A DNA stretch of 64,000 nucleotides from Thermoanaerobacter pseudethanolicus ATCC 33223 (lineage in GTDB: Bacteria > Bacillota > Thermoanaerobacteria > Thermoanaerobacterales > Thermoanaerobacteraceae), in NCBI RefSeq assembly GCF_000019085.1, contig NC_010321.1, positions 310,001-374,000 of the forward strand. The letters are read 5' to 3'. The notes beneath the pieces were generated by a model. The model saw nothing but the letters and a program-made list of their open reading frames with translations. It did not search any database and was not told the origin of the DNA. The number at the start of each line of letters is the position of its first letter. The first letter of the stretch is position 1. Positions 33,306-52,006 of this stretch are shown piece by piece. The position numbers and the translations under genes were made by a program.

Positions 33306-34688
33306 ATGAAAGTGAACAAAGCTTTTGCTACAGATAAAAATTCCTTGCAGTGGATATGCAACCTTTTAGATAATTCACACGATTTTTTTGTCTTAAAAGA
33401 TTTAAATGGTAAGGTAGTTCATGTAAATAAAAGACTTCTTGAAACATTAGGCTATACCGTTGATGAGTTAGATAATTATGATTATTTTTTTTACCATATA
33501 TTAAAATACAAAGAAGTAGGACCGTACGAAGATGGTCTTATCATAGAGCTTACGGCAAAATACAATATAAGAATGTCTTTTAGCATAAAATTTAGTCCTA
33601 TAGCTAACAGTGTTGGTGATAAAATAGCTTTTTTAGGGTTTGTGAAGTTGCGAAGCTATTGTAAAGAAAAACCTGAAGATTATTTTAACTTCTTCAAACA
33701 TCCAAATGACGTAATGGATATGACAGAGGAAGGTGTTGTGATAGTTGATAATAGGTTTAACGTGGTCTATGTGAATAACAGGACATGTGAATTATTTGGC
33801 ATTAAATATACAAAATTCATAAATGCAAAGTTTATGGACATTATAAAAAAATACAAACCGGATGCTTCAGAAAATAATTTAATTAACGGAGAAAAAATTG
33901 TAATCCCATTGAAAGGGAGTTTTGACGAAATAGTGCTTTTGCTTAAGTATGGGAAGTTAAACAGTGGGCATTGGAAAACTATTATTGTGAAAAATATAAC
34001 TGAAGACTTAAAATATCAAAAATTAATTGAGCAAACGGAAAAATACACAATTGCTGGTGAATTTGCTGCCACAACCATTCATGAAATAAAAAATTCTTTA
34101 ACTTCTATAAAAGGCTTTATACAACTTCTACAAGCTAAACATAAAGAAAGTTCTACTTACTATGAGACTATTTTAGATGAAGTGGACAGAATATTAGCTT
34201 TAATAAAAAATTACCTTGGTATAGTTAGAAGCAATGAAGAAGGAGAAACTGAAATAGACATAAATGGCGTTATAAATCAATATTTACTTCTTTTTGAAGC
34301 AGAAGCTGTTCGCAAAAAAATTAAAATAGAAAAAAGGTTTGGCGATGTCCCTCCTATAAAAATGGACAAAAATCATCTTAAGCAGCTTATTCTAAATGTA
34401 GTTCAAAATTCTCTTCATGCCATTGGGGAGAATGGTAAAATAATATTAGATACAAGATATTACACTCTCAAAAAGAGGGTGGTAATAAGAATTGTTGATA
34501 ATGGAGGTGGTATAGAGAAGAAATATTTAAAAAAAGTTATTGAGCCCTTGTTTACAACTAAAAGAGAAGGAACAGGCCTGGGACTTGCAATTTGCAAAAG
34601 TATTGTAGAATTGTACAATGGTGATATTAAAATTTTTAGTAAAAAAGGCAAAGGTACACTTGTAAAAATAATTTTAGGTGAGAGATAA
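33306..34688 (+). CDS. Orphan PAS-domain histidine kinase, sporulation-kinase-like
   Basis: The protein has 460 residues with no membrane helix. Two PAS-like domains lie at ~15-110 ([20 protein letters not shown]) and ~135-230 ([29 protein letters not shown]). The H box is [20 protein letters not shown] (~255-275), close to the HEVRNPLTAIKGFLQ form of KinA-type kinases. HATPase motifs are [24 protein letters not shown] and [12 protein letters not shown]. No response regulator gene is adjacent. In Clostridia such orphan soluble kinases can act on Spo0A; given spoIIE and germination genes nearby this is plausible but inferred. Confidence 0.85.
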
Positions 34689-34713: not shown

Positions 34714-36381
34714 ATGAAATCTGATATTGAAATAGCTCAAGAAGCGAAAATGCTACATATAAGGGAGGTTGCAAAAAAGTTAGACATTGAGGAAGACTAC
34801 CTAGAATACTACGGCAAGTATAAAGCAAAAATTTCTCCTGCGTTATCGGAGAAAATAAAGGACAGAAAAGATGGTAAGCTTATTCTTGTCACAGCGATAA
34901 CTCCCACCCCTGCAGGCGAGGGTAAGACTACACTTACTGTAGGATTAGGACAGGCTCTTGCTAAAATAGGTAAAAAAGCCATGATAGCTTTAAGAGAGCC
35001 CTCATTAGGACCTTGTATGGGAATAAAAGGTGGAGCGGCTGGGGGAGGATATTCTCAAGTTGTACCTATGGAGGACATAAATTTGCACTTTACAGGAGAT
35101 TTACATGCGATTACTGCTGCTCATAATTTATTGGCTGCTATGATTGACAATCACATCCATCATGGAAATGAACTTAATATTGACATAAGGGCTATTACAT
35201 GGAAAAGAGCTATGGACATGAATGATAGGGCTTTAAGAGAAATAATAGTAGGGCTTGGAGGAAAAGCAAATGGCTTTCCGCGGCAAGACGGATTTATAAT
35301 AACAGTTGCCTCAGAAGTAATGGCGATTTTATGTCTAGCTCAAGACTTGATGGATCTGAAAAGAAGAATTGGTGATATAATAGTGGCTTATGATAAAGAT
35401 GGCAATCCTGTAACTGCAAGAGATTTAAAAGCCGATGGAGCTATGACAGTCTTATTAAAAGATGCTATAAAGCCTAATTTAGTACAAACGATTGAAAACG
35501 TTCCAGCATTTGTTCACGGAGGACCTTTTGCAAATATTGCTCATGGATGCAATAGCTTAATTGCCACTAAATATGGTTTAAAATTGGCAGATTATTTGGT
35601 CACAGAGGCAGGCTTTGGTGCGGATTTAGGAGCTGAAAAATTCTTTGACATAAAGTCAAGGTTTGGAGGACTAACACCCAATGCAGCCGTCATAGTAGCG
35701 ACTGTAAAAGCTTTAAAGATGCATGGAGGAGTTAAAAAGGAACACTTACAAAAAGAAGATGTGGAAGCAGTAAGAAGAGGAATAGAAAATCTTGAAAAGC
35801 AAGTTGAAAATGTGAGGAAATTTGGAGTACCAGTGGTTGTAGCTCTCAACAGGTTTGTTTTTGATACTGAAAGGGAAATTGAAGAGGTAAGAAAGGCCTG
35901 CGAAGAAATGGGAGTAGATATGGCAGTAGCGGAAGTTTGGGAAAAAGGAGGGGAAGGCGGAATAGAGTTAGCTGAAAAAGTTGTGAAAGCTTGTGAGACA
36001 CCTTCCAACTTCCACGTTTTGTATGATGAAACACTTCCAATTAAAGATAAATTGCACATAATTGCAACAGAAATATATGGAGCTGATGGAGTAGAATATA
36101 CTGCTTCTGCTCTTAAAGATATAGCAAACCTTGAAAGACTAGGCTTTGACAAGATGCCAATAGTTGTAGCAAAAACTCAATATTCTCTTTCAGATGACCC
36201 AAAACTTTTAGGCCGTCCGAGAGGGTTTAAGATAACAGTAAGAGAATTGAGAGTTTCAAGAGGTGCAGGGTTTATTGTGGCTCTGACAGGGGATATAATG
36301 ACAATGCCAGGACTTCCAAAACATCCTGCAGCAGAAAACATAGACATTGATGAAAATGGAAGAATAACAGGGCTGTTTTGA
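34714..36381 (+). CDS. fhs: Formate-tetrahydrofolate ligase
   Basis: The protein has 555 residues, the family length. The ATP loop is [20 protein letters not shown], the conserved blocks [20 protein letters not shown] and [14 protein letters not shown] follow, and DNHIHHGN and [18 protein letters not shown] are present. It makes 10-formyl-THF from formate, THF and ATP; reversibly it supports C1 supply or the Wood-Ljungdahl methyl branch. ATG 34714 has GGAGGGG upstream; the frame open from 34678 overlaps the kinase stop but is an unlikely start. A small folate-linked domain gene follows 10 bp later. Confidence 0.96.
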
Positions 36382-36391
36382 GGGAGTGTAG

Positions 36392-36757
36392 ATGAAAAAA
36401 GAAATATTAGATATACAAAATTTGTCACAGGCGAAAAAGGAACTTAGCCAAATAAAAGCTGAAGAAATTTCTATAGATATTATGGCGCCAAAAGCTGTTT
36501 TTAGGGTTGTCAAGCTGTTTGATGTACATCCAGCAGCTGCTAACATAATAAAACAGGAGATGTTAGCTATAGGAGGAGAAGCAGCTGTAGCAAGAGGTTG
36601 CGTCAATATGAGCGTTGAAAAATCTGACGTTATTATAATGGGAACATTAAGACAATATCAAAGGCTTTTGGCGAAACTTAAAATGCAAAAGGGCTATTTT
36701 GGGCTTAATGAGGTTGTAGAAGAATTAAAAAGTGTTATTGAGGAAATGTCTAGATAG
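36392..36757 (+). CDS. Stand-alone protein matching the N-terminal extension of Clostridial dihydropteroate synthases
   Basis: The protein has 121 residues, alpha/beta and soluble. Key blocks are ISIDIMAPKAVFRVVKLFDV, PAAANIIKQEMLAIGGEAAV, ARGCVNMSVEKSDVIIMGTL and KMQKGYFGLNEVV. From memory, the FolP proteins of Moorella and Desulfotomaculum relatives carry such a ~110-residue block before the DHPS barrel (consensus IMAPK...ANILKQEMLS.GGEAAV). Here it is a separate gene behind fhs, while the folP at 50.7 kb lacks it. It may bind a pterin or assist a folate or corrinoid enzyme; its activity is unknown. A GGGAGTG site precedes the ATG. Confidence 0.7.
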   Translation: MKKEILDIQNLSQAKKELSQIKAEEISIDIMAPKAVFRVVKLFDVHPAAANIIKQEMLAIGGEAAVARGCVNMSVEKSDVIIMGTLRQYQRLLAKLKMQKGYFGLNEVVEELKSVIEEMSR

Positions 36758-36790
36758 GCGGCAAAGAGGCTTTTTCTTTGGCCGCTTTTT
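36758..36790 (+). terminator. Terminator after fhs and the DHPS-N-like gene
   Basis: GCGGCAAAG (36758-36766) and CTTTGGCCGC (36776-36785) pair with one bulge, followed by TTTTTT. Confidence 0.85.
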
Positions 36791-36877
36791 TACGGGAAAA
36801 AATTTCAAATGAAAAGGTAAACATTTGTTAAAAATTTATGTTATAATGTTAAGGGGAAAATCAAAGGAAGGTGTTTT

Positions 36878-36973
36878 ATGGTTGACAAGGAAGAATTAGA
36901 AAGTACTTTTGGAACTTTGTCAAAGGGATTAAATTTATTGTGTATTTGGGAAGTATGTGGTATATTATTTTAG
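36878..36973 (+). CDS. Tiny ORF of 31 codons, unassigned
   Basis: ATG 36878 follows GGAAGGTG at good spacing and a TATAAT-like sequence near 36843. The product would be MVDKEELESTFGTLSKGLNL followed by 11 mostly hydrophobic residues, then TAG. It could be a truncated gene, or a real small peptide in the leader of the carboxyltransferase operon. I do not recognise it. Confidence 0.35.
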   Translation: MVDKEELESTFGTLSKGLNLLCIWEVCGILF

Positions 36974-37034
36974 TAGGTACTAATAATAACTGCTACTATT
37001 CGGTCGCAGTGAGGCTGTAAGGAGGTATAATTGT

Positions 37035-50117: not shown

Positions 50118-50684
50118 ATGATAGATAAAGAAAAGATTAAAAAAGCGGTAAGAGACATACTTGAAGCCATAGGAGAAGACCCGGATAGGGAGGGGCTCCT
50201 TGAGACTCCTGATAGGGTTGCAAGGATGTATGAGGAAATTTTTGCTGGCCTTCATACGGATGTAAAAGACGTTATAAAGATTTTTCAGGAGGATGAACAT
50301 CAAGAAATAATACTTGTAAAAGATATTCCGCTTTATTCTATGTGCGAACATCATCTCTTGCCTTTTATAGGAGTTGCCCATGTAGCGTATTTGCCTAGAA
50401 AAGGTAGAATTTTAGGCCTTTCAAAATTAGCTCGCATAGTAGATATTTTAGCAAAAAGGCCACAGCTTCAAGAGAGGTTGACAAGTGAAATTGCAGATAC
50501 CATAATGGAAGCAGTGAATCCCTTAGGTGTTGCCGTTGTCATTGAGGCAGAACATTTGTGTATGACAATGAGAGGTATCAAAAAGCCGGGGGCCAAGACT
50601 GTTACTTCTGCTTTGAGAGGAATATTTAGAACAGATGAAAAATCAAGGGCAGAGGTAATGTCTTTAATAAATTCTAAAAAATAA
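50118..50684 (+). CDS. folE: GTP cyclohydrolase I
   Basis: The protein has 188 residues. Zinc and catalytic motifs are [20 protein letters not shown] (key CEHH), [40 protein letters not shown] (second Cys and His ligand region) and TSALRGIF. It converts GTP to 7,8-dihydroneopterin triphosphate, the start of folate synthesis and also of queuosine precursors. Next are folP, folK and a PTPS-family gene. Confidence 0.96.
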
Positions 50685-50696
50685 GGGAGGTAAATT

Positions 50697-51509
50697 ATGC
50701 TATTTAGGTGCAGAGATAAAAGTCTGGAGATTGGAAAAAAAACTTACATAATGGGAATTTTAAATATGACTCCTGATTCTTTTTCAGATGGGGGAAAATA
50801 TAATACTTTAGAAAAAGGCATAGAAAGAGCTCTTCAAATGATAGAAGAAGGAGCTGACATAATAGATGTAGGTGGAGAGTCTACAAGGCCGGGACATACT
50901 CCAGTGGATGAAGAAGAAGAAATGAGAAGAGTTATACCTGTCATTGAAAAGCTTTCAAAAATTTCAAATGTCATTATATCTGTGGATACTATGAAATCAA
51001 ATGTGGCATTAAGAGCTTTAGAAGCAGGTGCTCACATAGTAAATGATGTATGGGGACTTCAAAGGGACCCCAAAATGGCGGAAGTAGTTGCAAAATACAA
51101 TGCAGGTGTAATAATGATGCATAACAGCAATGTAGCAGAATATGAAGATGTTGTTCAGGATATAATAAAATTTTTACAAAAAAGCATAGAGATAGGAGAA
51201 AAAGCAGGAATTGATAAAAGTCAAATGGTAGTGGACCCAGGGATAGGTTTTGGAAAAACTTTAGATCATAATCTTGAGGTCATGAATCGATTGGAAGAAT
51301 TAAAAGTTTTAGGACTTCCTGTGCTTTTAGGTACTTCTAGGAAATCCATGATTGGAAAAGTTTTAAACCTTGAAGTAGAGGATAGATTGGAAGGGACTGC
51401 TGCAACAGTTGCTGTTGGGATTGTAAAAGGGGTTGATATTGTACGCGTTCACGATGTAAAGCAGATGTTAAGAGTTGCTAAGATGACTGATGCGATGGTG
51501 AGAAGATGA
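50697..51509 (+). CDS. folP: Dihydropteroate synthase
   Basis: The protein has 270 residues. TIM-barrel motifs are MGILNMTPDSFSDGGKY, IIDVGGESTRPGHTPVDEEEE (key GESTRPG), SVDTMKSNVALRALEAGAHI, IVNDVWGL, DPGIGFGKTLDHNLE and LLGTSRKSMIG. It condenses hydroxymethyl-dihydropterin diphosphate with p-aminobenzoate. It is the short form without the ~110-residue N-terminal extension seen in some relatives; a free copy of such an extension lies at 36.4 kb. It starts 12 bp after folE and overlaps folK by 4 bp. Confidence 0.95.
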   Translation: MLFRCRDKSLEIGKKTYIMGILNMTPDSFSDGGKYNTLEKGIERALQMIEEGADIIDVGGESTRPGHTPVDEEEEMRRVIPVIEKLSKISNVIISVDTMKSNVALRALEAGAHIVNDVWGLQRDPKMAEVVAKYNAGVIMMHNSNVAEYEDVVQDIIKFLQKSIEIGEKAGIDKSQMVVDPGIGFGKTLDHNLEVMNRLEELKVLGLPVLLGTSRKSMIGKVLNLEVEDRLEGTAATVAVGIVKGVDIVRVHDVKQMLRVAKMTDAMVRR

Positions 51510-52006
51510 GTGAAGTGTATTTATCTTTAGGTTCTAATTTAGGAGATAGGGAAGAAAATTTAAAAAGAGCCGTTTTTGAGTTAGAACACTGGGAAGGCAT
51601 AATTTTAAAGAAGCTTTCTCCTATTTATGAAACAAAACCTGTAGGATATTTAAACCAGGATATGTTTTTAAATATTGCAGTTGAAGTGGAGACAAACATT
51701 GGGCCTTATGACTTACTAAAAGTTGTAAATGAAATTGAAAAAAAATTAAAACGAGAAAGACTCATAAGATGGGGTCCAAGGACTATTGATATTGACATAC
51801 TGTTGTACGATGATATTGAATTAAAGGATGAAGTGTTGAGTATTCCTCATCCGAGAATATGGGAGAGAGCTTTTGTGTTGATTCCTCTTTCGGATATAAA
51901 CCCTTTTATAAAAAAAGGAGATGTGTATATTAAAGATTTAATAGCGGAGTTGCCTGATAAAGAAGGAGTTAAGCTGTATAAAGAGAATTGGTACAATGGG
52001 GTGTAA
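51506..52006 (+). CDS. folK: 6-hydroxymethyl-7,8-dihydropterin pyrophosphokinase (HPPK)
   Basis: The protein has 166 residues. It begins VYLSLGSNLGDREENLKRAV, then SPIYETKPVGYLNQDMFLN, and has the signature RWGPRTIDIDILLYDD with the metal-binding Asp pair, followed by IPHPRIWERAFVLIPLSDI (key HPR..ERAFVL). It diphosphorylates hydroxymethyl-dihydropterin. The ATG overlaps the folP stop. No FolB (dihydroneopterin aldolase) gene or fused FolB domain is present. Confidence 0.95.
   Translation: MSEVYLSLGSNLGDREENLKRAVFELEHWEGIILKKLSPIYETKPVGYLNQDMFLNIAVEVETNIGPYDLLKVVNEIEKKLKRERLIRWGPRTIDIDILLYDDIELKDEVLSIPHPRIWERAFVLIPLSDINPFIKKGDVYIKDLIAELPDKEGVKLYKENWYNGV

Follow-up and report, generated by a model that had tools for sequence, protein, structure and literature searches.

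The gene for formate-tetrahydrofolate ligase (fhs) in Thermoanaerobacter pseudethanolicus ATCC 33223 is followed closely by a short gene, and the locus raises the question of why a domain that precedes the dihydropteroate synthase (DHPS) barrel in other proteins should stand alone here, and what it does. In the window, the stretch of 64,000 nucleotides that was analysed, this free-standing FolP-N domain gene occupies 36392..36757 on the plus strand, starts with ATG, and encodes 121 amino acids (MKKEILDIQN...EEMSR). The protein is predicted to be a flavin-dependent dihydropteroate/dihydrofolate reductase with a minimal ThyX-like fold. The reductase genes of ThyX-using organisms that lack FolA have been described as yet to be identified (PMC1971073). 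We consider it probable that the open reading frame (ORF) encodes a stand-alone enzyme of this type, a free variant of the domain known as DHFR2.

The immediate surroundings are compact. The fhs gene (34714..36381, plus strand; PF01268 E 1e-282, NF010030) has an ATG at 34714 and a second start option in an upstream GTG frame from 34678. Its TGA stop lies at 36379-36381, and therefore a spacer of 10 bp (36382-36391) separates it from the free domain, as the initial annotation had described. The GAGGGAGTGT / GAGGGAGTG stretch (GAGGGAG) across the fhs stop (36380..36391, plus strand) is, from its letters, a plausible ribosome-binding site for the free-domain gene. A predicted hairpin followed by six T residues (36757..36791, plus strand; -17.7 kcal/mol, z -2.1) is its likely terminator, and is absent from the list produced by a consensus terminator scan. 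Directly 5' of fhs is a PAS histidine kinase gene (33306..34688, plus strand) that is kept across the Thermoanaerobacteraceae. The free domain is present as a single copy in the genome (one 2.36-Mb contig searched), and its named relatives at 97-100% identity are Thermoanaerobacter. Positions 36758-37034 separate it from a carboxylase gene. Between the same two genes, genomes G023 and G021 carry genes that resemble those for methylmalonyl-CoA mutase subunits, for an epimerase and for a GTPase of the MeaB type (L043 10070-13518; L045 7788-11243). This set is missing from the window, and G019 retains only a short B12-binding-like remnant (L044 9191-9445), which suggests that these genes were lost by recent deletion.

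Searches of Pfam, NCBIfam and PDB sequences with the single protein, and of Pfam and PDB with a set of 45 members, gave nothing above noise, and the PDB chains included no full-length relative. Because the domain is absent from these sequence sets, databases probably label it hypothetical or conceal it within entries named ‘dihydropteroate synthase’. A profile built from 109 domains, with E-values scaled to a nominal 10,000 sequences, matches residues 1-117 of the FolP from Sulfurovum, a member of the Campylobacterota, at E 2e-26, the FolC-FolP linker of Halomicrococcus at E 1e-8 and, partially, the Haloarcula marismortui linker at E 1e-3. The domain is thus homologous both to the N-terminal part of DHPS in Campylobacterota and to the haloarchaeal linker, its divergent relative. 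Levin et al. in 2004 reportedly assigned a reductase activity to the N-terminal part of the DHPS of Helicobacter pylori, which they described as a flavoprotein, and regarded this part as homologous to the haloarchaeal linker. The H. pylori bifunctional enzyme is HP1232. A passage in a published report credits Levin, Mevarech and Palfey (2007) with a flavin-dependent dihydropteroate reductase fused to DHPS in H. pylori, named DHFR2 (PMC1971073). In Haloferax, a mutant in dihydrofolate reductase (DHFR) is complemented by nonorthologous genes of Hbc. salinarum and Har. (PMC3235422) and by a named haloarchaeal FolP-FolC fusion (PMC1274311).

Several differences from these known systems define what is present in the window. 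The H. pylori DHFR2 shares with the free domain a profile-homologous N-terminal domain and a host without FolA, whereas here there is a separate, unfused gene beside fhs, in which no PF00809 barrel follows in the same polypeptide (the barrel is encoded from 50697), and the connection to H. pylori runs through Sulfurovum, the haloarchaea and the literature. The haloarchaeal FolC-linker-FolP protein is a three-part fusion with a strongly diverged linker, unlike the 121-residue protein, although the H. marismortui FolC-FolP gene likewise adjoins an fhs gene. FolA (PF00186) has the same proposed biochemical role but no sequence match in the free domain. The signature A-N-I-x-K-Q-x-M-L is shared by free and fused members from different phyla, and N51, K54 and Q55 are among the conserved residues. 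Within the family, dN/dS is 0.04-0.17 (Nei-Gojobori, for pairs with estimable dS, several pairs being saturated), and the free domain is under purifying selection.

The relationship between free and fused forms is clearest within the class. The domain is encoded in 35 of its 37 genomes. In the Thermoanaerobacteraceae it is free and mostly located behind fhs, in the order ftsH, histidine kinase, fhs, free domain and carboxylase gene; in one genome (G016, L031) it is free but elsewhere, adjoining yjbQ. In two genomes of the same order but another family (L035 and L036), the arrangement is ftsH, fhs, a fused N-domain-FolP gene, folK and carboxylase gene. The fused proteins have 391 and 397 amino acids, with the domain at approximately 1-116 and the barrel from 132, which confirms the earlier identification of the protein as an extension that precedes the DHPS barrel. 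As the flanks match, including the carboxylase genes common to both loci, the free gene sits in the slot of the fused folP-folK pair. At the same locus in L037 (9669-10520), a protein of 283 amino acids combines an intact domain with a wrecked barrel, in which the pterin-binding motifs have been lost (MGILNVTPDSFSDGG, the ESTRPG stretch and GTSRKSMIG). A possible second case is the protein of 220 amino acids at L177 (6349-7011), where a good N-domain is followed by an unrecognised tail of approximately 100 amino acids that gave no barrel match.

The absence of fused DHPS homologues, named at the outset as the result that would count against this identification, was looked for and is clearly not what the genomes contain. 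Both forms occur in Bacillota and in other phyla, and fusions are widespread. The domain is encoded in 225 of 398 genomes of the phylum, and among the 150 matches listed for the phylum there are 34 short frames (free), 115 of fused length and 1 intermediate. Beyond the phylum, genome contigs carry the fused form in Margulisbacteria, Armatimonadota, Sumerlaeota, Cloacimonadota, Gemmatimonadota and Thermoplasmatota, and the free form in the DPANN archaea Aenigmatarchaeota, Micrarchaeota and Woesearchaeota. No relatives were found in viral contigs or phages. A phylogeny of fused and split forms, proposed in the initial annotation, was informative in part: the domain tree (119 columns) requires 8 changes between fused and free states, but it is poorly resolved and well-supported branches force only two of them. 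In five genomes (G360, G246, G138, G374 and G087) a free domain is accompanied by a separate FolP, and because this FolP groups with those of genomes that lack the fused form, the synthase seems to have been replaced, with the domain kept in place. Other arrangements were also seen. Three contigs encode a Caldicellulosiruptor-like FolP (L040 266-1393, L041 466-1590, L042 17365-18492) with an N-terminal extension of approximately 100 amino acids to which the domain profile gives no match; these genomes also have a free domain approximately 8 kb from FolP, beside an ORF of 200 amino acids with no assigned family. On an actinomycete-labelled contig (L122 7882-8749), a fused folP is broken into ORFs of 204 and 93 amino acids in two frames, either by sequencing error or as a broken gene. 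On an Aenigmatarchaeota contig (L096 9947-10968), a small overlap joins the free domain to the gene of a queuosine precursor transporter (TIGR00697), which is a pterin-like link.

The FolP of the window is encoded approximately 14 kb from the free domain (50697..51509, plus strand; PF00809, TIGR01496) and, as had been noted, lacks the extension, being a plain barrel of 270 amino acids. It lies within a folE-folP-folK-queD cluster, in which the folE-like ORF (50118..50684, plus strand) is the first gene and the folK-like ORF (51506..52006, plus strand) follows folP; both of these were named by inspection. The position of folK therefore differs between the loci, since in L035 and L036 it follows the fused folP behind fhs. 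The FolP tree places the window protein among fused-type FolP. A sister relationship with the same-order fused proteins of L035 and L036 was considered and is unsupported, as the tree groups it with the fused L121 and L142 at a support of 90.

A domain with dihydrofolate reductase activity would be expected to take the place of FolA, and the genomes were examined for this prediction. Within the class, FolA and ThyA are each found in 0/37 genomes and ThyX in 35/37, with the two misses being fragmented assemblies. Among the 398 genomes of the phylum, FolA is present in 79, and only 11, two of them with weak FolA matches, carry both FolA and the domain (odds ratio 0.08, Fisher P 3e-18). Of the 307 genomes with FolP, 205 have the domain only, 49 have FolA only, 9 have both and 44 have neither (odds ratio 0.04, P 7e-22). 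Since genomes are related, these values overstate independence, and a count in which each of 141 families enters once is safer (P 5e-4). The two genes can alternate within a single genus (g50), where one genome (G078) has FolA without the domain and another (G115) has the domain without FolA. In a sample of 254 genomes, FolA is present in 27/27 of those with canonical ThyA, none of which depends on the domain alone; two of the double carriers (G156 and G204) are ThyA genomes. A low-capacity reductase, sufficient for ThyX but not for ThyA, would fit this pattern. Both the domain and FolA are missing from the 44 FolP-containing genomes mentioned above and from many genomes without FolP, so that either the problem is solved there in other ways or divergent copies escape the profile. 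One complete genome of the same order (G036) is without domain, FolP and FolA but has FolT and ThyX, and would depend on an external supply of reduced folates or on a different reductase. As a separate observation, genome G000 has a single ThyX match (L207, G000:C1:472300-474100), a protein of 521 amino acids with two Thy1-like halves, a form seen in nearly all Thermoanaerobacteraceae genomes searched.

Further information comes from copies of the domain INDEPENDENCE from FolP. In the phylum, 11 genomes have the domain without a convincing FolP, and 9 of these also lack FolA. All 11 have a match to folT, the folate S component of ECF transporters (TIGR04518), which is above the cut-off in ten and below it in G305. 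The distance between folT and the domain is 28-98 bp in the ten of these genomes with listed coordinates and in G246, and NCBIfam confirms the FolT neighbour in four (L084, L086, L092 and L104). The folT-linked domains of FolP-less genomes fall into a single clade of the domain tree (SH-aLRT 98), and the arrangement may thus have arisen once. The linkage suggests that the domain acts on imported folate without DHPS. The proposal that the domain has its own function is supported by its free occurrence in several lineages, by this adjacency to folT in genomes without FolP, and by its intact state in L037.

Structural predictions point towards ThyX. AlphaFold2 models were produced for the window protein (model 1; pLDDT 92.5, 14 rows) and for a free form from Woesearchaeota (model 2; pLDDT 95.2, 45 rows). 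Foldseek against the PDB gave no E below 0.001, with ThyX as the three best matches of model 2. With VIA-align, for which a best Z of 7-8 is common in models without relatives, model 1 matched ThyX at Z 8.8, 8.7, 7.1 and 7.0 (rmsd 3.3-4.1, 104-111 residues; next 6.0), and the top 17 entries for model 2 were all ThyX (Z 9.6-7.5, rmsd 3.4-4.7, 95-106 of 113 residues; next 4.9). The match of the predicted fold to ThyX is credible in view of these 17 consecutive entries and of the drop in Z that follows them. The free domain is half the size of ThyX (PF02511), with no Thy1 match in Pfam and no sequence similarity, and profile-profile comparison by hhalign was no better than for shuffles, so the fold match is no evidence of shared ancestry or of function. 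FAD and methylene-tetrahydrofolate, the compounds that ThyX uses, suit a flavin/folate enzyme, although a shared fold alone shows no function. In the openly licensed literature we found no earlier report of the free-standing form or of a ThyX-like fold, and prior notice is possible.

Different explanations can be proposed for these observations. A small protein that adjoins fhs, folT and folP, with no solved relative, might bind, store or channel folate between FolP, FolC, Fhs or FolT with no redox chemistry of its own. This is unlikely, as it leaves the strong exclusion of FolA unexplained and the homologous fused enzyme has been reported as a reductase (PMC1971073). A different flavin/folate redox role near ThyX, as an accessory factor of ThyX or another one-carbon reductase, would accord with the predicted fold, and the exclusion could then arise merely because ThyX organisms lack FolA, as in the class (ThyX present, ThyA and FolA absent); the presence of FolA in all 27 canonical ThyA genomes also agrees with it. 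We regard it as improbable, since the domain is fused to DHPS and linked to folT rather than to ThyX, and the FolP pathway needs a dihydrofolate reduction that no other recognised gene there fills.

The position 10 bp from fhs in the window, with adjacency to fhs in several lineages, might instead indicate a subunit of Fhs in the Wood-Ljungdahl branch or a partner in corrinoid or methyl transfer. The suggestion in the initial annotation of a folate-related function agrees with the data, more specifically as flavin-based folate reduction, but its corrinoid/methyl-transfer alternative finds no support: there is no similarity to B12-binding or methyltransferase proteins, in genomes the domain is tied most closely to folP, folT and fhs and to a lack of FolA, and the free form also occurs apart from fhs (L031, L038-L042, L160, L163, L165-L170). 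Such a partnership is very improbable. Even less credence can be given to a functionless leftover of a fused folP after deletion of its barrel; the shared locus with the fused genes of L035 and L036 and the decayed barrel of L037 would agree with it, but it is contradicted by the low dN/dS, by presence in nearly the whole class and by a signature conserved across phyla.

The probable reading remains that the free domain is the N-terminal reductase part of a bifunctional dihydropteroate synthase/reductase, standing alone. It most likely binds flavin, and the reduced flavin would convert 7,8-dihydropteroate or dihydrofolate into its tetrahydro counterpart, allowing it to replace FolA in this ThyX-dependent bacterium. 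We infer flavin binding, reductase activity, substrate and electron donor for the free domain, and likewise the exact history of fission and the extension from the Sulfurovum protein to the Helicobacter enzyme itself. The ancestor of the family probably had, at the fhs locus, a fused FolP that included the domain; in the Thermoanaerobacteraceae, the role of the barrel would have been taken by a folP elsewhere, leaving the reductase domain behind fhs.

Many ThyX-using bacteria and archaea without FolA still need tetrahydrofolate. The stand-alone gene provides a small object for direct tests that parts the reductase from DHPS catalysis, and it would tie folate reduction to the ThyX fold. More tentatively, a free ThyX-fold flavoenzyme of approximately 115 residues may be the dihydrofolate reductase that many ThyX-dependent prokaryotes seem to lack, FolP-less folate importers and DPANN archaea among them, and it may share an ancient origin with ThyX.
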